Position numbers and translations under genes: made by a program. A DNA stretch of 64,000 bases from Luteolibacter rhizosphaerae (lineage in GTDB: Bacteria > Verrucomicrobiota > Verrucomicrobiia > Verrucomicrobiales > Akkermansiaceae): positions 682,001-746,000 of the forward strand of contig NZ_JAPDDR010000001.1 in assembly GCF_025950095.1 (NCBI RefSeq), given 5' to 3'. Within the stretch, counting starts at the first letter, position 1. The number at the start of each line of letters is the position of its first letter. Below the pieces are notes generated by a model, which made no database searches, had not been told where the DNA came from, and saw only the letters and a program-made list of their open reading frames with translations. Below are positions 11,337 through 56,566 of this stretch, one piece after another.

Positions 11337-12031
11337 TCGACCGCGTGAAGGCGGCGAAGCTTTGGCTATTCGACATCGACGGCACCCTGGTGGATACCGG
11401 AGGTGCCGGGATGCGGGCCCTGCAGGAAGCGGCCCAGGAGTGCTACGGCGGTGAAGGTCCTCCCCTGGATCTGGCCGGTAACACCGATCTGGGAGTCCTT
11501 GCGGGGATTCTCGCTCACTTTGATCTGCCGCATGGCGCGGACGAAGGGGAGCGATTCTTCGCCGCCTACCTGAAGCGTCTGGAATGGAATCTCGCCCATG
11601 GCGGTTATGCCGGGCGAGTGCTGCCCGGCGCGGCAGCTTTGCTAGAGGACCTGGAGCGGCGAGATGGCGTGACCGTCGGGCTGCTGACCGGAAACATCGC
11701 GGAGGGAGCGGGGGCGAAGATGCGGCACTACGGGCTGGACCGGCATTTCGGTTTCGGGGCCTACGGCTGCGACCACGCCGACCGCAATTTGTTAGGGCCG
11801 GTGGCCTTGGAGCGTGCGGCGCTGCATGCGGGAAGGGACTTCTCCCCTGAGGAGACGCTGGTCATCGGCGACACGCCGAAAGACATCGCCTGCGCGAAGG
11901 CCATGGGTGCCCGCTGTCTGGCGGTGGCGACCGGGAAATTCAGTGCGGAACAACTCCGTGCCTGTGGGGCGGAGATGGTGGTGCAGGGGCTGGACGATCC
12001 GGCGATTTTGCCTGCATTCGGATTGCAGTGA
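11333..12031 (+). CDS. HAD-superfamily phosphatase (phosphoglycolate phosphatase-like)
   Basis: A 232-aa HAD subfamily I hydrolase. Motif I is FDIDGTL (D14 nucleophile, D16), motif II is LLTGN, and the C-terminal acidic motif is IGDTPKDI. The cap lies between about residues 20 and 95. The family dephosphorylates small phospho-metabolites; Gph-like or pyrophosphatase-type roles are possible, and the substrate is not readable. The start is a GTG at 11333 that overlaps the infC stop (GTGA), so translation is probably coupled to infC. That coupling is an unusual neighbour for IF-3. Confidence 0.9.
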   Translation: MIDRVKAAKLWLFDIDGTLVDTGGAGMRALQEAAQECYGGEGPPLDLAGNTDLGVLAGILAHFDLPHGADEGERFFAAYLKRLEWNLAHGGYAGRVLPGAAALLEDLERRDGVTVGLLTGNIAEGAGAKMRHYGLDRHFGFGAYGCDHADRNLLGPVALERAALHAGRDFSPEETLVIGDTPKDIACAKAMGARCLAVATGKFSAEQLRACGAEMVVQGLDDPAILPAFGLQ

Positions 12032-49108: not shown

Positions 49109-51853
49109 TCAGTCGTCCGTCACGCGGAAGTAGCAGCGCGTATCGGTGAAGCGGTCGATCGATACCAACTCCTCATGGCTGCTTCCGCTGGCGACCACCG
49201 TGCGGATGTCGGTCCATGAGCTCAGGCCCGTGCTGCGCTGGATCTTGTAGGCGCGCCCGGGCACGGACTTCCAACGGAAGCGCATCTGGTCGCTCTCCAT
49301 CTCGCAGCTTTCGAGCTCGATCTTCTCGGCCGGGAGCACGCTGAAGAGGAAGCGGTTCGAGACCTCGGTGTAGGAGTCGTTCGTGAACATCGCCACGAAG
49401 TAATCGCCGGGCGGAAGATCCGGGAGTTGGAAAGTCACGCTGCCGGAACTCGCCCCGGCGAAGTAGAGGTAGGCTGTTAGAATATCCACCCCGGGCACAT
49501 CGCCTTGCTTGAAGAGGCCGATCCAATCTTTCGGAATACCCGGACCGTTGCTGAAGTTCACGCTGAAGTCCTCGCCCGCCGGCACCGTGGCGGATGCCAT
49601 GCTCACCGTGGTGATCTGCGTACCTACGGAGAATCGCACCCGGTCGGCGATTTCCTGGTAGCCGTCGTTCAAGCAGAAGGTGGCATAGTAATAACCCTTC
49701 GGCAGGTTGGCGAAGGTCCTTGTCCCCGCGGCCGTGGTGGCATAGCCCCACTGCACGGAAGGAGTGGCCGCCCCGGGATTCTGGTCGACCCGGTAAACGC
49801 CAATCCAATCCTTCGCCCCGGCAGGAGCATTCGCGAAGTCGACGGAGACTGTCTCCCCTTCGTCGTAGGCTTGCTCGGATGGTGTGAGCGTCACCTTGTT
49901 CCCGACATAGAAAGACACGCGGGGAGCAACCTCGGTGTAGCCGTCGTTGGTGAAGAAGGCGGCGAACCATTCGCCCACCGGCAGGTTGTAGTTCAGGTTC
50001 CGCGTCCCGTTCACCGGATTCGCGGCATCCACATAGCTCCACGTGGTGGAGGTGCTCGTGCCCGTGCCGCTGCCCGGGGTCTGGCCTTTCCGATAGATGC
50101 CGATCCAGTCCTTCGGCAGGCCGGGTCCGTTCTCGTAGGTGACTAGGATGTCCTCGTTCACGGGATAGACCGTCTTGGCCAGCTTGATTGCCGTAGGCCC
50201 GCCGGTGCTGCCTTCCACGGTGAAGCTCACCGCATCCGACCATGGCGACCACATCGCATTGGCGTCACGATGGCGCACGCGTGCGTGATAGCTGCCGTTG
50301 AAAAGGCCCGCCGCGGCGTTGTATCGCAGAATGTCGATCCCGGCGTGGATGTTCACAGGCTCATAGAGCGGTGCCCCGGTATCGCCGTAGAGATTCTCCA
50401 CATCGCGGATGCGGTCGATCTTCAGGTTGGTGAAGCCGTTGTCCGCGGCGACCTGGAACCAGGTGCTGTTGATCGCCTCGCCGCTGGCCGTCTGATAGGG
50501 CGAACTGACAAGCTCGAGCGGCAGCGTTACGGGACCCGTGAACGTGTTCGTGAGCGAGGGCTTCTGGGGTGCGGGCAGGCCGAGCTTGCGGTGAAAGCTG
50601 TCGATGACCCGGCTGTTGTAGTTCCAGCGCGTGGCGGCGGGGAGCTTCACGTTCGCTTCCGCATAGCAGGTGGCCTGCATGGTCTGCGCCGCGAGGTCGA
50701 AGTCGAGCAGCTGCCAGGCCCAGTGGGCGATGGTCTTCTGCACGTCGTCGAAGTCGATCTCGGAAGACTGCCCCCAGTACTGATCCCAGGCCGTGCCGCC
50801 GGAGATGATGTGATAGATCGGCCACTCGCGGGTCTGGCCGCGGGCGTAAAGGTGGTGATGCGCGCCGATGTTCAGCACATGCTTCGGCGTTTCCGCCAGC
50901 ATCGGCATGATCTCGCTGCGGAACCATCCCGAGATGTCTCCCACGTACTGCTCGGCCTGATAGGGGCGGTGCACCACGCTTACACACAGGTCCGTGCTCG
51001 CATCGGTCTTCAGCGCATCCACCAACGAGCGCAGCCATTGCTTCTGGGTATTGCCGGTATGCTCGCTGCTGGAATGAATGAACGCGACGTTCGCGAGCTG
51101 GTAGGCATAGTACTTCTCGCCCTCCGGTCCCGGCAGGTTCGCGTAGCTGATGTCGTCGTAGCGGAAGATCCGGCTGTAGAGCGAGAGACTGCTGTCGTAG
51201 TAGGTCTCGTGGTTCCCGACCGTGGTCATGATCGGGATGTTCGGCGAGATCAGCCCGCACTGCTTGAAGTGAAGGTTGCGGTAGTGGTCCAGCGTGCCGA
51301 CGTCCACTTGGTCGCCCGGCATCAGGATGAAGTCGATGACCTCCTCGATCGGCAGGCCATAGTCGGCTTCGATCTTCGCCTTCGCGCAGGCGATGAGCTT
51401 TTCATAGCGATTCTCGGCAATGATCTGGTTGTCGCCCATCACCAGCACCCGCAGTTTGCCCGTCTTCGTTCCCGCGGGCGGAGGCGTACGGAAGCGGAAG
51501 GTGGCCGAAACCGTGCTGCCGTTGCGGACACGATAGTAGTAGTAGCTCGAAGGGCTGAGTCCGGTGATCCGCCCGGCGTGGTAGTGGTAGCCGCTGCCCA
51601 GCACGTCGAGCTGGGCGGTGATCGTATTGCTCAGGTTGCCTGCGGATGTGCCCCATTCGATCTGGCCTTCCGGCGCATTGTCGGAGAACCACGACACCCA
51701 CATGGAGTCCGGGCGTGGGGTCTGGAGATAGGGGCGGATCCCGGCGGGAATGCCGGTGTAGCCTTCGGGCAGGGCGATGCCGCGCGCGGCCAGGCCGATG
51801 CCACCGAAGGCCGAGAGTCGTAGGAAGTCGGAACGCTTCATGGAGGCTCTCAT
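49109..51853 (-). CDS. Secreted metallophosphoesterase with three DWIG repeats
   Basis: A 914-aa protein. The N-terminus (KRSDFLRLSAFGGIG) is Tat-like. A purple-acid-phosphatase-type FnIII domain (about 35-125, PDSMWVSWFSDN...HYHAGRITGLSPSSYYYYRV) precedes the calcineurin-like core: MGDNQ, MPGDQVDVG, VGNHETYY, VVHRPYQ, IGAHHHLYARG. Then come three tandem repeats of about 95-105 residues, each with a (P/A)KDWIG(I/V/L)(Y/F)(R/K) motif and a later Y/F-x-A-x-F-x-NDxYxE motif (about 565-850). The C-terminus (RAYKIQRSTGLSSWTDI...CYFRV) is a W...FYR-type tail. Substrate: phosphate monoesters or nucleotides, by inference. Confidence 0.85.
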   Translation of the reverse strand: MRASMKRSDFLRLSAFGGIGLAARGIALPEGYTGIPAGIRPYLQTPRPDSMWVSWFSDNAPEGQIEWGTSAGNLSNTITAQLDVLGSGYHYHAGRITGLSPSSYYYYRVRNGSTVSATFRFRTPPPAGTKTGKLRVLVMGDNQIIAENRYEKLIACAKAKIEADYGLPIEEVIDFILMPGDQVDVGTLDHYRNLHFKQCGLISPNIPIMTTVGNHETYYDSSLSLYSRIFRYDDISYANLPGPEGEKYYAYQLANVAFIHSSSEHTGNTQKQWLRSLVDALKTDASTDLCVSVVHRPYQAEQYVGDISGWFRSEIMPMLAETPKHVLNIGAHHHLYARGQTREWPIYHIISGGTAWDQYWGQSSEIDFDDVQKTIAHWAWQLLDFDLAAQTMQATCYAEANVKLPAATRWNYNSRVIDSFHRKLGLPAPQKPSLTNTFTGPVTLPLELVSSPYQTASGEAINSTWFQVAADNGFTNLKIDRIRDVENLYGDTGAPLYEPVNIHAGIDILRYNAAAGLFNGSYHARVRHRDANAMWSPWSDAVSFTVEGSTGGPTAIKLAKTVYPVNEDILVTYENGPGLPKDWIGIYRKGQTPGSGTGTSTSTTWSYVDAANPVNGTRNLNYNLPVGEWFAAFFTNDGYTEVAPRVSFYVGNKVTLTPSEQAYDEGETVSVDFANAPAGAKDWIGVYRVDQNPGAATPSVQWGYATTAAGTRTFANLPKGYYYATFCLNDGYQEIADRVRFSVGTQITTVSMASATVPAGEDFSVNFSNGPGIPKDWIGLFKQGDVPGVDILTAYLYFAGASSGSVTFQLPDLPPGDYFVAMFTNDSYTEVSNRFLFSVLPAEKIELESCEMESDQMRFRWKSVPGRAYKIQRSTGLSSWTDIRTVVASGSSHEELVSIDRFTDTRCYFRVTDD

Positions 51854-51932
51854 GCTGGGGAGTGGACCCTCTCCCGCGTAACGGGCATTTTCGACAGGAA
51901 GGGCAGGAATATCGCCGCCCTTTTAAACGAAA

Positions 51933-51959
51933 AAGAGCCCGCCGGAGTGGCGGGCTCTT
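51933..51959 (-). terminator. Intrinsic terminator after the LamG gene
   Basis: Perfect 11-bp stem (51933-51943 with 51949-51959), 5-nt loop, with TTTCGTTT following on the minus strand. It ends the LamG-gene transcript before the phosphoesterase gene. Confidence 0.85.
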
Positions 51960-51988
51960 GGAGTTCGGGATTCTCGCTGCGAAGCGCT

Positions 51989-54490
51989 TTAGAAGCGCAG
52001 GCGGTAGAAGTGTCGTGGGCCGTCTGCCGGCAGGTAAGGGGATACCGCCGCCGGGACATCCTGCCAGCCGCCGAGGTTATCGGACTGCTGCAGAACCCCG
52101 TTCGACCACTCCAGGGTGATCACCCCGCCGGGCTTGGTGATCGTCAGGGGCACGGGACCGATGCTGGCGAGGAAGTGATTCCGCACCTGCGCTTCGCTCA
52201 GCGCCTTGTTGTAGATCGCGGCGTCGGTGATGCCGCCGGTGAAGTTCCGTTGGGCAATGGCGTCCGAGTTGGGGAAGCCAGGGCCGTTCTTCCAGCGCCC
52301 ACGTGCACCGATCGCCCAGTTGGCATTTGCCACCGTCGTCGGGCCCGTCGCATCGGCTCCGGTCGCTAGGACGCTACCATTGCGATACAGTGTCCAGGTC
52401 CCCGCATTCCATGTGCCCGCGAGATGGACCCAGGCACCCGTGCCGAGGTCCTCTGCCGGCACGGTCGCAGTCGCCTTCCCGCCGGTGCCACCCACCTCGT
52501 AGTTGCCGCTCTCGATTCGTAGGAATATCTCGCCGGAGAAGGTGTCATTGCCTCCGTGACCGATGATCACGTTAGACGGGTTAATCTGAAATCCCGGCTG
52601 CACCCACGCTTCCAAGGTGATCGGACCCGCGAAGTTCAGTCCGCTCGGGTTGCCCAGTTCCACGTAGGTATTGGCGCCGCGGAACGCGCTCGCACTGTTG
52701 TTCGCCTCGAAGCCCTTGTAAGCCGGTGCACTCGGGCCCGGGGTCTGCGCGGGGGAGTTTACCAACGTGCCCGCTGCCGCAGAGCCCAGTGTGCCGAGGT
52801 TGGCGGAGGGTGCCTTGGCCGCCTCGTTCATCCGGAAGTAGCCTACCGGCGCATCCGAGGCGATCAACGTGGCATAGGGAGTCGCCGGGGACGCGTTGAT
52901 CCCGTTGGCATGGTGGGCGCTGATCAGGGAAGCGGACAGCACCTTGTCGTAGAAAGCCACCTCGTCGATATCACCGTCGAAGGGGTTCTCGGTGCCGTTC
53001 GAGAATCCGCCGATGGACGGCACGATGTCGGTCTCGGGTGGATTGGGGGCGTAAGCGCCCAAGCTGGTCACTTGGCTGCCGGCGAGGACGCCGTTGATGT
53101 AGAAGGACGCCGTCTGGGTGGCCGAGTTGAAGGTCACCGCGAGGTGCTGCCATTGGCCGATGGTATAAGATCCCGGTACTGCGCCGGAACCGGCTGCGGT
53201 GGTGAGGTTGATCGTCGCATTGTTGCCGACTCCCGTGTAGAGACGCAGGTTCCAGCCGTAGCCACCGGGATGACCGGCGGGCGCCGTGGATGAGCCGCGC
53301 TGCCAGAGCACCCAGCCGGTCCGGGTTCCTCCCGGGTTGTGGTTCTTCAACAAGCATTGCGCGTTGGCGCGTCCCTCCGCGCTCGGCTTGACCCAACCTT
53401 CCCAGGTGAAGTTCGCGGTGTTGTATTCCGCCTTGGCAGGCAGCACGGTCGGATAACCGCCGTCGTTCGAGGTCTTATCGATGCTGTCGTAGCGCATCGC
53501 GGTATCGCCGCCCGCTGCCAGCGCGCCCGGCACCGAATGGGTCACCCCCGGGAAGTGAATGCCATGACCGCGCGGCGCGATCGTCCCTTGGTTCAGAGCT
53601 ACCGCCCGGCCCGCATCGTATTCGTCCATCCGGTGCTGCATAATCGCACCGTCACCCCGTACCAGGGAGTCATACGACTCCGCCGGGATCGCATCCAAGC
53701 CAGCTTGATAGTGTTCCTGTACCTGCGTTGCGGTGAGCGCGGACGGATAGTAGGCGACTTCGTCGATATCGCCGGTGAAGGGGTTTCCGCCGACCGGGTC
53801 GGAGTAGGCTCCGAATCCCATCGGGGTGGAGTTGTTCGGCATGTAGGTCCCCGCGGAGGAGGTGGTCCCGTTGCCATCGACATACAGCGTGGCCGTGCTG
53901 CCGTTCCACACCAGCACCACGTGCGACCAATCGCCCGTGGTATAGGTGCCTCCCGTCACATCGATGGAAACACCGCTTCCCGATCCGCTATACATCCGGA
54001 AGTTCCAGCCTTGCTGGCGGCTCGTGTCGTTGGTCGAAGCGCGCTGGAAGAAGACCCAGCCTTGGCGGTTGCCGTCGGTCTTGCGGTTGGAGAGCGGTGC
54101 TTGGCCCACCGCAATGTTCTCTTCCACCGTCGGGCGCAGCCATGCTTCGATCGTGAAGGGTTGGTTCGCCGCCGGGTTCAGCGCCGCGTTGTTCGGGACC
54201 GTGGTGATCGAGGACAGCGTGTTGCTCACCGTGCTGCCTTGGAAGAAGGAGGCCGGGTTGCCGCCCGCACTGATGGCTCCTGTCACATGGTGCTGCACGA
54301 AGCGGTGCACGCCGTTCAGTGCGGCACCCGCAGTGCCTTGGTTGATCGCCACATCGGTGGGCACGGCTTCACCGAGACCATGAAAAGCGAGCGGACCGTC
54401 CGCGAGAACGGCGGAGGAGTAGCTCTGCGCGTAGACGCAGAGGGGGGCGCAGCCGAGGAGGCCGGCCAGGAGGGCAGGGCTTGGATTCAT
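51989..54490 (-). CDS. Secreted protein with three LamG-like domains
   Basis: An 833-aa protein with a signal peptide (1-21, VYAQS). Three concanavalin/LamG-like modules follow at about residues 95-255, 345-530 and 600-775. Each has FT(W/I)E(A/G)W(L/V)xP, GNxxGWVFFQR- or GTRTGWVLWQR-like, and FxGDIDEVA(Y/F)Y...L or FTGGITDAAIYNKALSEAQV motifs. The C-terminal region (VITLEWSNGVLQQSDNLGGW...FYRLRF) is the tail found in Verrucomicrobia secreted proteins. It probably binds polysaccharide or a protein surface. It is divergent from the XylR-HAD fusion. Confidence 0.88.
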   Translation of the reverse strand: MNPSPALLAGLLGCAPLCVYAQSYSSAVLADGPLAFHGLGEAVPTDVAINQGTAGAALNGVHRFVQHHVTGAISAGGNPASFFQGSTVSNTLSSITTVPNNAALNPAANQPFTIEAWLRPTVEENIAVGQAPLSNRKTDGNRQGWVFFQRASTNDTSRQQGWNFRMYSGSGSGVSIDVTGGTYTTGDWSHVVLVWNGSTATLYVDGNGTTSSAGTYMPNNSTPMGFGAYSDPVGGNPFTGDIDEVAYYPSALTATQVQEHYQAGLDAIPAESYDSLVRGDGAIMQHRMDEYDAGRAVALNQGTIAPRGHGIHFPGVTHSVPGALAAGGDTAMRYDSIDKTSNDGGYPTVLPAKAEYNTANFTWEGWVKPSAEGRANAQCLLKNHNPGGTRTGWVLWQRGSSTAPAGHPGGYGWNLRLYTGVGNNATINLTTAAGSGAVPGSYTIGQWQHLAVTFNSATQTASFYINGVLAGSQVTSLGAYAPNPPETDIVPSIGGFSNGTENPFDGDIDEVAFYDKVLSASLISAHHANGINASPATPYATLIASDAPVGYFRMNEAAKAPSANLGTLGSAAAGTLVNSPAQTPGPSAPAYKGFEANNSASAFRGANTYVELGNPSGLNFAGPITLEAWVQPGFQINPSNVIIGHGGNDTFSGEIFLRIESGNYEVGGTGGKATATVPAEDLGTGAWVHLAGTWNAGTWTLYRNGSVLATGADATGPTTVANANWAIGARGRWKNGPGFPNSDAIAQRNFTGGITDAAIYNKALSEAQVRNHFLASIGPVPLTITKPGGVITLEWSNGVLQQSDNLGGWQDVPAAVSPYLPADGPRHFYRLRF

Positions 54491-54625
54491 AGGGCTTGAG
54501 TTGAAACAAAACGATACGGGGTATCTCTTTCTTACGGGTCAAGCCATCACTTCGTTTAGCCTGTCCCCCAAAGATGCGAGTGAACAATTTGTAAGATTCG
54601 CCACCCTCGGGCAGGGGATGCCTGC

Positions 54626-56566
54626 TTGCCACCGCCGCCGCGGCTTGTCATTCCATGCGGAGAACACGTGACCGAGCCCGCCATCGTACGCCGCAGCGTC
54701 GCCATCCGCCATCCGGTATGGTCCTCCTTTGGCCCCTTGGTCACGGCCGGGGTGGTGGACTTCATGCGCGGCCATGAAATGTGGCGCCTCGTCACCGGGA
54801 ACCGCTCTTATGGCGAGATGGAAGCGGTTGAGATCGACCGTGGCTGGCATGGCGACGGGCTGATCCTTTTCCGCGCCAGCGAGGAAGAACTCGCCGCCTA
54901 CCGCCAACGCGGGCAAGCCGTCGTGCTCACCAGCACGGAAGGTCCCGACCTCGGTTTCCCCCGCGTCATTCCGGACAATGCGATGATCGGTCGCATGGCT
55001 GCGGAGCACTTGATCGAGTGCTCCGTGCCGCACTTCGCCTTCCTCGCCCGCGGCGAGACCTTCTACCGCGAAGCGGAGTTTGCCCCCGGCCTGCGCCGCT
55101 ACGCCCGCGAGCGCTTGGCCGGCTATCGCGCCCGGCTCGCGGAGTATGCCTTGGAACCCTCGGTGCATTACCTGAAGGGCCGCCCGCTTTGGAAGGAGCA
55201 GACATGGCGCGAGGTGGAGACGGAGGTGATGGCCTTCCTCGATCTCCTGCCCAAGCCCTGCGGCCTCTTCGTCGCGGATGATTCGCTCGGCGCCGTTGCC
55301 TTGCGCGCGGCGGATCGCCTCGGCCTCCTCGTCCCGGCCGAACTCGCCGTCATCGGCTTCGGAGACGACCCCGCCTACTGCTTCTCCACCTTCCCCGCGC
55401 TCAGCAGCATTCCCTATCCCGGCCGCGAGGTCGGTCGCATCGCCGCCGAGCTGCTCTGGCGGCAGATGAAGGGGGAGTCCGTCACTTCAGGCCGCACCGA
55501 GATCCCGCTGCAGGACACGATTCTGCGCGAGTCCAGCGACACGCTCGCCATCGCCGATCCTGACATCCGCGAACTCGTGCGCCTGATCCGCCTCCGCGCC
55601 CCGCACGATGCCCTTCAAGTCTCCGAGCTCGCCGAACTCAGCACGCTCTCGATGACCACCATCAAGTCGCGCTTCTCTAGCCTCCTCGGCCACGGCCCCA
55701 AGCAAGAGATCCAGCGCGTGCGCCTCCGCCATCTCCAGCGTCTGCTCGCGGATTCCTCGCTCAGCCTCGCCGAGATCGCCCGCCGCATGAAGTTCGGCTC
55801 CGCCCATGAGCTCAGCCGCTTCTTTCTCACCGAGACCGGCCAGCGCCCCAGCGACTATCGCGAGAAGCTCACGCTTTCCTCACCGCGCACCGGGACCAAG
55901 ACCGTCATCTTTGACATGGACGGCACCCTCTTCGATACCGAGCCGCTCTACTGCGAAGCCTTCCGCGCCGCCTTCGCGAAACAGGGCGGCACCCTCGACC
56001 GCGAGGAGTACTTCCGCGAACTCATGGGCCGTTCAAACCTCAGCATCGAGACCTACCTCGCGGCCAAAGCCACCGGCAGCTTCGATGCTGCCCGCTTCTC
56101 CAGGGAATGGCGCCGCGAATGGAAGTCCATCCTCGCTGCCGAGCGTCTCGAAGTCCTCCCCGGCGTGAAGGAGCTTCTCGAAATGCTCGTCGAGCAAGGC
56201 GTCCGCATCGGTCTCGCCAGCTCCAGCGACCGCGAGGATATCGAGCTCAGTCTCGAAGCCGCCGGCCTCGGTAGCTACTTCCCGATCAAGGCGGGCGGCG
56301 ACGAAGTGAAAGCCGGCAAGCCCGCCCCCGACGTCTATCTACTCGCTTGCCAGCGCCTCGGCGTCGAGCCCGCCACCTGCATCGCCATCGAGGACAGCCG
56401 CCATGGCAAGGCCGCCGCCCTCGCCGCCGGCATGGATGTCGTATGGGTTACCGGATTGCCAGACGCTCCCGAATCCCGGGTGCGGAAAGTAAAAACCCTC
56501 GCCGGTCTCGGCGAGGGTGATTGGAAAAAACTCTTGGGAAGTACGATGGATCTCAGAGTTCTTTGA
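54626..56566 (+). CDS. XylR-type AraC regulator fused to HAD phosphatase
   Basis: A 646-aa single open frame. Residues about 22-300 are a LacI/XylR-type periplasmic-binding sensor (GLILFRA, IPDNAMIGRMAAEHLI, PCGLFVADDSLGAVALRAADRLGL, VIGFGDDPAYC, TILRESSDT). Residues about 318-413 are an AraC HTH (LAELSTLSMTTIKSRF, LAEIARRMKFGSAHELSRFFLTETGQRPSDYRE). After only about 10 residues a complete HAD domain begins: VIFDMDGTLFDTEP (D430, D432), ASSSDRED, AGKPAPD (K565) and IAIEDSRHG (D590), resembling beta-phosphoglucomutase. The start 54626 is the longest; a GTG at 54668 is an alternative. Its last 14 bp overlap the convergent DUF1080 gene. Confidence 0.9.
   Translation: MPPPPRLVIPCGEHVTEPAIVRRSVAIRHPVWSSFGPLVTAGVVDFMRGHEMWRLVTGNRSYGEMEAVEIDRGWHGDGLILFRASEEELAAYRQRGQAVVLTSTEGPDLGFPRVIPDNAMIGRMAAEHLIECSVPHFAFLARGETFYREAEFAPGLRRYARERLAGYRARLAEYALEPSVHYLKGRPLWKEQTWREVETEVMAFLDLLPKPCGLFVADDSLGAVALRAADRLGLLVPAELAVIGFGDDPAYCFSTFPALSSIPYPGREVGRIAAELLWRQMKGESVTSGRTEIPLQDTILRESSDTLAIADPDIRELVRLIRLRAPHDALQVSELAELSTLSMTTIKSRFSSLLGHGPKQEIQRVRLRHLQRLLADSSLSLAEIARRMKFGSAHELSRFFLTETGQRPSDYREKLTLSSPRTGTKTVIFDMDGTLFDTEPLYCEAFRAAFAKQGGTLDREEYFRELMGRSNLSIETYLAAKATGSFDAARFSREWRREWKSILAAERLEVLPGVKELLEMLVEQGVRIGLASSSDREDIELSLEAAGLGSYFPIKAGGDEVKAGKPAPDVYLLACQRLGVEPATCIAIEDSRHGKAAALAAGMDVVWVTGLPDAPESRVRKVKTLAGLGEGDWKKLLGSTMDLRVL

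Follow-up and report, generated by a model that had tools for sequence, protein, structure and literature searches.

A single open frame in the 64,000-nucleotide stretch of DNA analysed here (the window) encodes a genuine fusion of a regulator with an enzyme, in which a XylR-type sugar-binding domain and an AraC-type HTH_18 domain are followed by a complete beta-PGM-like HAD domain, as judged from sequence. We favour, with modest confidence, the explanation that this is a selected two-function protein, which would act as a XylR-type one-component regulator of a phosphoesterase locus through a repeat with a 21-bp period and would also carry an active fused HAD-IA sugar-phosphate phosphatase. 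What the sequence data establish is the existence and conservation of the fusion, purifying selection and an intact set of catalytic residues, together with linkage of the genes and, at the promoter of the predicted target, a repeat that is conserved. Fused proteins of this kind are already present in sequence databases, and the arrangement resembles other regulator-enzyme fusions.

The sequence-only reading had described a protein of 646 aa; the frame 54626-56566 is indeed open across 646 codons with no interruption, but the coding sequence (54668..56566, + strand) likely begins at GTG 54668 rather than at the earlier TTG start at 54626, so that the protein would comprise 632 aa. The GTG is favoured because of a GGAG at 54659-54662, with a 5-nt spacing to it, and because of the starts of related sequences: among the 74 HAD-bearing rows of the homolog alignment, 44 start no more than three residues from this place (13 start farther upstream and 17 farther downstream), and the near-identical database entry P0002, which represented the window protein in the alignments and differs from it by three substitutions, starts at the same position. 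Pfam domains, all above cut-off, occur in the order Peripla_BP_3 (126-304), HTH_18 (335-413) and HAD_2 (427-608; 646-aa numbering). On the + strand of the window, the LacI/XylR-type periplasmic-binding-like sensor domain occupies 54695..55537 (Peripla_BP_3 itself spans 55001-55537 and the N-terminal edge is approximate), the AraC-type DNA-binding domain HTH_18 55628..55864 as assigned by Pfam, a short linker 55865..55897, and the HAD-IA/beta-PGM-like phosphatase domain 55898..56449, with the codon of nucleophile D430 at 55913, that of D432 at 55919, and K565 and D590 also present. The gap between the HTH and the HAD measures about 12 residues, and the linker varies among relatives; in the 632-aa form, residues 402-408 are modelled with a pLDDT below 50. 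The AlphaFold model (mean pLDDT 82.7) is fair to good inside the domains, and with a pTM of 0.54 the domain arrangement is uncertain.

Foldseek ranked E. coli XylR (PDB 4FE4/4FE7) first among the matches to the model, and it was also the best PDB sequence match to the regulator part; like the window protein, it places a Peripla_BP_3-like sensor before an AraC-type HTH. Its chains have 392 and 412 residues, however, whereas the window protein adds a HAD after the HTH. The window protein is XylR-type by its domains and not by its end: relatives of about 400 aa stop after the HTH, and it continues into the HAD. The order of sensor, central AraC-type HTH and C-terminal enzyme is that of E. coli Ada, in which, unlike the present fusion, the enzyme is an unrelated DNA methyltransferase and the signal is self-methylation. 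The fused HAD displays 28-30% identity and a matching fold to the HAD-IA phosphatases TM_1254 (3KBB), YniC/HxpB (1TE2) and CbbY (4UAR), and shares its catalytic motifs with the first two in alignments; in contrast to the fused domain, these are stand-alone enzymes. The family model for HAD-IA (TIGR01509) gave 65.7 bits against a cut-off of 29.4, and the DxDGT, Ser/Thr, Lys and acidic motif IV elements are all present, whereas the scores lie below the cut-offs of the beta-PGM equivalog TIGR01990 (96.6 bits, cut-off 189.4), of the beta-PGM/YqaB family TIGR02009 (132.9 bits, cut-off 153.35) and of the curated HxpB model NF008087. The domain is a HAD-IA enzyme by its motifs, then, and not a beta-PGM by score. 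The Pfam domains, structure matches and motif residues together bear out the original proposal of a XylR-type regulator joined in one frame to an intact HAD domain.

The predicted target of the regulator is a metallophosphoesterase gene (Pur_ac_phosph_N and Metallophos domains; 49109..51853, - strand), the start of which, in common with relatives, is ATG 51841. A relative of this gene (E<=1e-100) is present in 12 of the 12 genomes with the fusion, versus 24 of the 386 genomes sampled overall, and in 10 of the 12 it lies divergent from the fusion at a distance of 2.1-5.5 kb; in G175 the two genes are on separate contigs, and in G133 the regulator contig is just 4.5 kb long. HAD-less regulators (G025, G236, G307 and G004) are likewise found near a metallophosphoesterase, and eight of the 24 genomes (G317, G053, G056, G064, G077, G081, G154 and G174) possess the metallophosphoesterase without a regulator relative at E<=1e-60. 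The phosphoesterases of the locus are likely exported, a prediction made from their families. A protein of the endonuclease/exonuclease/phosphatase family is a recurrent neighbour (G221, both G264 copies, G175, G122, G349 and G324), and the C-terminal repeats of the metallophosphoesterase, matched weakly by SKICH in Pfam, are similar to the N-terminal portion of proteins of that family (L042, 7854-9959). A TPR-sulfotransferase gene also recurs near the regulator (L041, L050, L082, L083, L089, L091 and L092, and more weakly L046 and L048). A 3-keto-disaccharide hydrolase gene (PF06439; 56553..57242, - strand) lies tail to tail with the fusion in a 14-bp overlap, and such a gene is also downstream in G015, G009, G221 and G264. 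Of all the loci examined, just three (the window, G015 and G009) have a LamG-repeat protein gene as neighbour, which in the window is divergent from the regulator (51989..54490, - strand). A sigma-70 scan of 51800-54800 found nothing. A role in defence was rejected, PADLOC having returned no match.

As a rule, AraC-family regulators recognise DNA via tandem direct-repeat operators, and a tandem repeat of roughly KGGCAWWWTCGNCGG with a 21-bp period was found upstream of the regulator at fused as well as HAD-less loci. Half-site seeds were selected by visual inspection of seven loci (L046-L049, L054, L082 and L083), for which leave-one-out scoring is accordingly not fully independent. In that scoring the repeat exceeded every one of 300 dinucleotide shuffles at 11 of 19 loci, among them the non-seed loci L045, L041, L084 and L050. 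At L089, L088 and L090, respectively 1, 4 and 6 of 300 shuffles scored equally high, and the regulator-adjacent tandem site was absent in five of the 19 loci (the window, L038, L085, L091 and L092). Over 20 loci of the regulator or metallophosphoesterase, 22 pairs occur at spacing 21 (12 in the training set and 10 outside it), whereas any other spacing between 15 and 33 gave 0-3. Four sites were found in seven loci labelled ctl, which are not a true negative set because six of the seven hold a distant regulator relative and three of the four sites are upstream of such relatives. In L085 (7570-7604 and 10425-10459) and L088 (11931-11965), pairs resembling the operator were noted whose period is 20 rather than 21 bp.

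In the window, the predicted operator (51883..51918, + strand) consists of tandem 15-nt half-sites of 17.2 and 9.8 bits with a 21-bp period, and lies 41 bp ahead of ATG 51841, the likely start of the metallophosphoesterase gene. It was identified with a matrix trained on regulator-upstream sites alone, with no metallophosphoesterase promoter among them, and at 27.0 bits it is the best spacing-21 pair in the 64 kb, the next scoring 12.4; 100 shuffles of the window gave a mean of 11.9 and a maximum of 23.4 bits. At other spacings the best pair reached 18.0 bits (spacing 32), and single half-sites elsewhere scored 10.5-15.8 bits, including a lone strong half-site of 15.8 bits at 11999-12013 (- strand) with no partner at 21 bp. 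A site upstream of the metallophosphoesterase was present in seven of 15 loci (the window, L046, L048, L082, L083, L041 and L050, with one half weak in L082 and L041), always in one orientation and at offsets of 95-101, and none of 200 shuffles scored as high. The remaining eight of the 15 had no upstream site of this form: in six of these (L038, L045, L047, L049, L054 and L090) a same-direction gene ends close upstream of the metallophosphoesterase, and in L045 and L047 a site precedes such a gene; the other two are L086 and L089.

A terminator-like hairpin (51933..51959, - strand) sets the LamG gene apart from the predicted operator, and since only some 80-90 bp separate the hairpin (51959-51933) from ATG 51841, the predicted site is bound to overlap the core promoter or to abut it. 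Control of the divergent LamG gene, as had been suggested from the sequence, was not borne out: the intergenic region that this gene shares with the regulator holds no operator-like site (none in 54491-54667, and 3.9 bits is the highest half-site score in 54380-54700), and the 27-bit tandem site instead fronts the metallophosphoesterase gene. The regulator probably controls its neighbouring metallophosphoesterase gene through the predicted site at 51883-51918.

The same domain arrangement recurs well beyond the window, as a database search proposed at the outset has revealed. Of 5.8 billion proteins searched, 7,993 candidates were scored and yielded 151 homologs, and among the 120 listed the alignment shows the HAD to be present in 74 (the window's own counted) and absent in 46. 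Named carriers of the fusion include Luteolibacter and Haloferula, and the database names of fused proteins include HAD-IA family hydrolase and LacI family transcriptional regulator. In a sample of 386 genomes of the order, the window's own genome included, a regulator relative at E<=1e-60 was found in 31, and 12 of these match across the full fusion. The outcomes that would have spoken against the fusion, namely a stop at the junction in relatives or orthologues that are always split, did not materialise: 74 of the 120 listed homologs are fused, and in nine HAD-less loci of at least 45% regulator identity the available flanking DNA contained no HAD match beside the regulator (only 1,988 bases follow the stop in G004), and split orthologues next door were accordingly rejected. 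Elsewhere in eight regulator-only genomes that were checked, a HAD of approximately 45% identity was detected in G025 only; the best HADs of G004, G122, G236, G307, G349, G324 and G039 have 34-40% identity, the 40% value being a partial match in G004 (61% complete). The stand-alone HAD of G025 (C5:553100) is on a different contig from the closest regulator relative, and no relative of the regulator or metallophosphoesterase passed the thresholds within 16 kb around it.

Fused proteins did not originate as a single clade: this arrangement was rejected by an AU test (p-AU 0.00225) on a tree that comprised 25 genome-verified rows, of which 12 are fused and 13 are not, and that requires three changes of HAD state; the tool's cautions concern the group having been named beforehand and the long branches of G169, G039 and G025. 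A quick tree of 117 rows requires 12 changes, at least eight on starred branches; it leaves out P0065, P0098 and P0104, which were too short, and some of its 46 HAD-less rows are short metagenome contigs of unseen context. As the fused proteins are not one clade, the HAD has been gained or lost repeatedly, to judge from these trees. In a quick tree of the HAD itself (109 rows, with long-branch warnings), 68 of the 74 fused HADs fall in a single clade (99*), five (P0069-P0072 and P0075) and one further (P0047) lie among the stand-alone HADs, and the starred branches force just one change, so that one to three fusion events are possible. This tree omits P0168 and P0170, which bear HTH_18, the fragments P0171, P0175 and P0182, the listed matches after P0204, and P0169 (226 aa, from a contig of 1,591 bases, with 60% identity), which is either a cut fusion or a stand-alone protein. 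One genome, G264, carries a fused copy (C1:4446096-4447955) and a HAD-less copy (C1:79774-80955; L083 and L084, 66 and 63% identity), both near an endonuclease/exonuclease/phosphatase-family gene.

These findings bear on a first alternative, which we regard as somewhat unlikely, in which the HAD would be active yet functionally separate, gaining from the fusion only its co-expression with the regulator and no coupling. HAD-less homologs reach 72% identity to the regulator part of the window protein, and close ones (G004, G307, G025, G236 and G264b) occupy similar loci, from which it follows that the HAD is dispensable in such loci and that locus and sites are independent of it. That many homologs have similar sites and neighbours without a HAD is what this alternative would predict, as are the short and variable linker and the faster evolution of the HAD, which is 70% identical to its counterpart in G015 compared with 81% for the regulator part. 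Against it, the fusion is still found at full length in homologs of about 50% identity, and an adjacent split form was found in none of the nine HAD-less loci.

In a second alternative, considered improbable, the HAD would serve as a further ligand-sensing domain rather than an enzyme, by analogy with the shikimate-kinase-like domain of BzdR. In the report on BzdR (PMC3602430), that regulator is described as joining a DNA-binding domain to a shikimate-kinase-like enzyme fold which has lost catalysis and binds the effector; it thereby offers a precedent, and resembles the window protein in combining a DNA-binding domain with an enzyme fold, but the latter has a separate sugar sensor and has kept its catalytic residues, whereas BzdR lost its enzyme activity. 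The Asp pair D430 and D432 is invariant in all 74 HAD-bearing rows, and the catalytic residues as a whole are retained in 72-74 of the 74 (K565 in 73, D590 in 72, S532 in 73 and S533 in 72), which argues against a purely sensory role. Deviations are confined to P0062 (three of these sites), P0054 (in which Asn replaces the last Asp), P0041 and P0034. The first of these is a full-length fusion with a degenerate active site, as a second sensor would allow; with its HAD motifs partly gone (R433, T533, N565 and S590, window numbering), it is a natural candidate for a catalytically dead form.

Purifying selection on the HAD is consistent with the retention of the catalytic residues: in the four closest genome pairs its dN/dS was 0.060, 0.085, 0.110 and 0.152 (regulator part 0.055-0.076), and across all 22 pairs 0.060-0.408 (two not computable; regulator 0.055-0.228), all being rough values because synonymous sites are near saturation. 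The fused HAD is probably an active phosphatase, given that its catalytic residues are retained, and the earlier judgement that all of its motifs (D430, D432, S532/S533, K565 and D590) are intact and that it is likely active agrees with both lines of evidence. An assembly error or missed stop at the junction of HTH and HAD has a negligible probability, since full-length matches occupy one open frame in 12 of the 386 sampled genomes (own included), the junctions of which were read, and the junction is likewise open in 74 database rows.

Under the favoured explanation of a selected two-function protein, the fused regulator would bind the tandem repeat with its 21-bp period, and its sensor would bind a sugar or sugar phosphate made available by the working phosphoesterases, which are probably exported. 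Ligand binding would then alter occupancy at the site on or abutting the core promoter and so set phosphoesterase expression, while the HAD domain would dephosphorylate a related sugar phosphate in the cytoplasm. Given a regulator's copy number, the HAD would more likely tune a signal or clear a minor toxic phosphate than handle bulk flux. Weighing against the favoured explanation are the missing repeat beside the regulator in the window and four other loci, the eight metallophosphoesterase loci with no upstream site of this form and the weak halves in L082 and L041, the close HAD-less homologs, the faster change of the HAD, the altered catalytic residues of P0062 and P0054, and the separate contigs in G175. 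Coupling of the phosphatase and regulatory activities in the fused protein is plausible, and the link of sensing to detoxification or feedback that had been suggested from the sequence is possible; if the catalytic state were to alter DNA binding, the protein would belong with the trigger enzymes, in which catalysis governs transcription. A more specific version, which we hold to be rather unlikely, is a self-limiting one-component switch in which the HAD would destroy (or produce) the very sugar phosphate that is read by the fused sensor; if this were true, each regulator molecule would determine for itself how long its signal lasts at the phosphoesterase regulon's promoter, and HAD-less lineages would possess the same switch without the timer.

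Since members of the same regulator family occur in nature both fused to the phosphatase and lacking it, and their loci and sites are similar, the family constitutes a natural experiment on the effect of tethering an enzyme to its regulator, and the predicted operator and target gene make the regulatory reading directly testable. Among the titles and abstract openings that searches of open-licence PMC brought up, none described a sugar-sensing regulator to which an intact metabolic phosphatase is fused. The closest full-length stand-alone HADs are phosphatases of Verrucomicrobiales (P0172-P0174, P0176-P0179 and the G025 copy at C5:553100), which have 44-53% identity to the fused domain and, unlike it, are unfused. 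A search with the HAD part, limited to proteins of similar length, gave 101 matches among 7,998 candidates scored, and the sole DNA-binding regulator domain that the Pfam column reports among these outside the fusion family is that of P0153, a protein of 443 aa in which a MerR-type HTH is joined to a HAD and which represents another arrangement of regulator and HAD.
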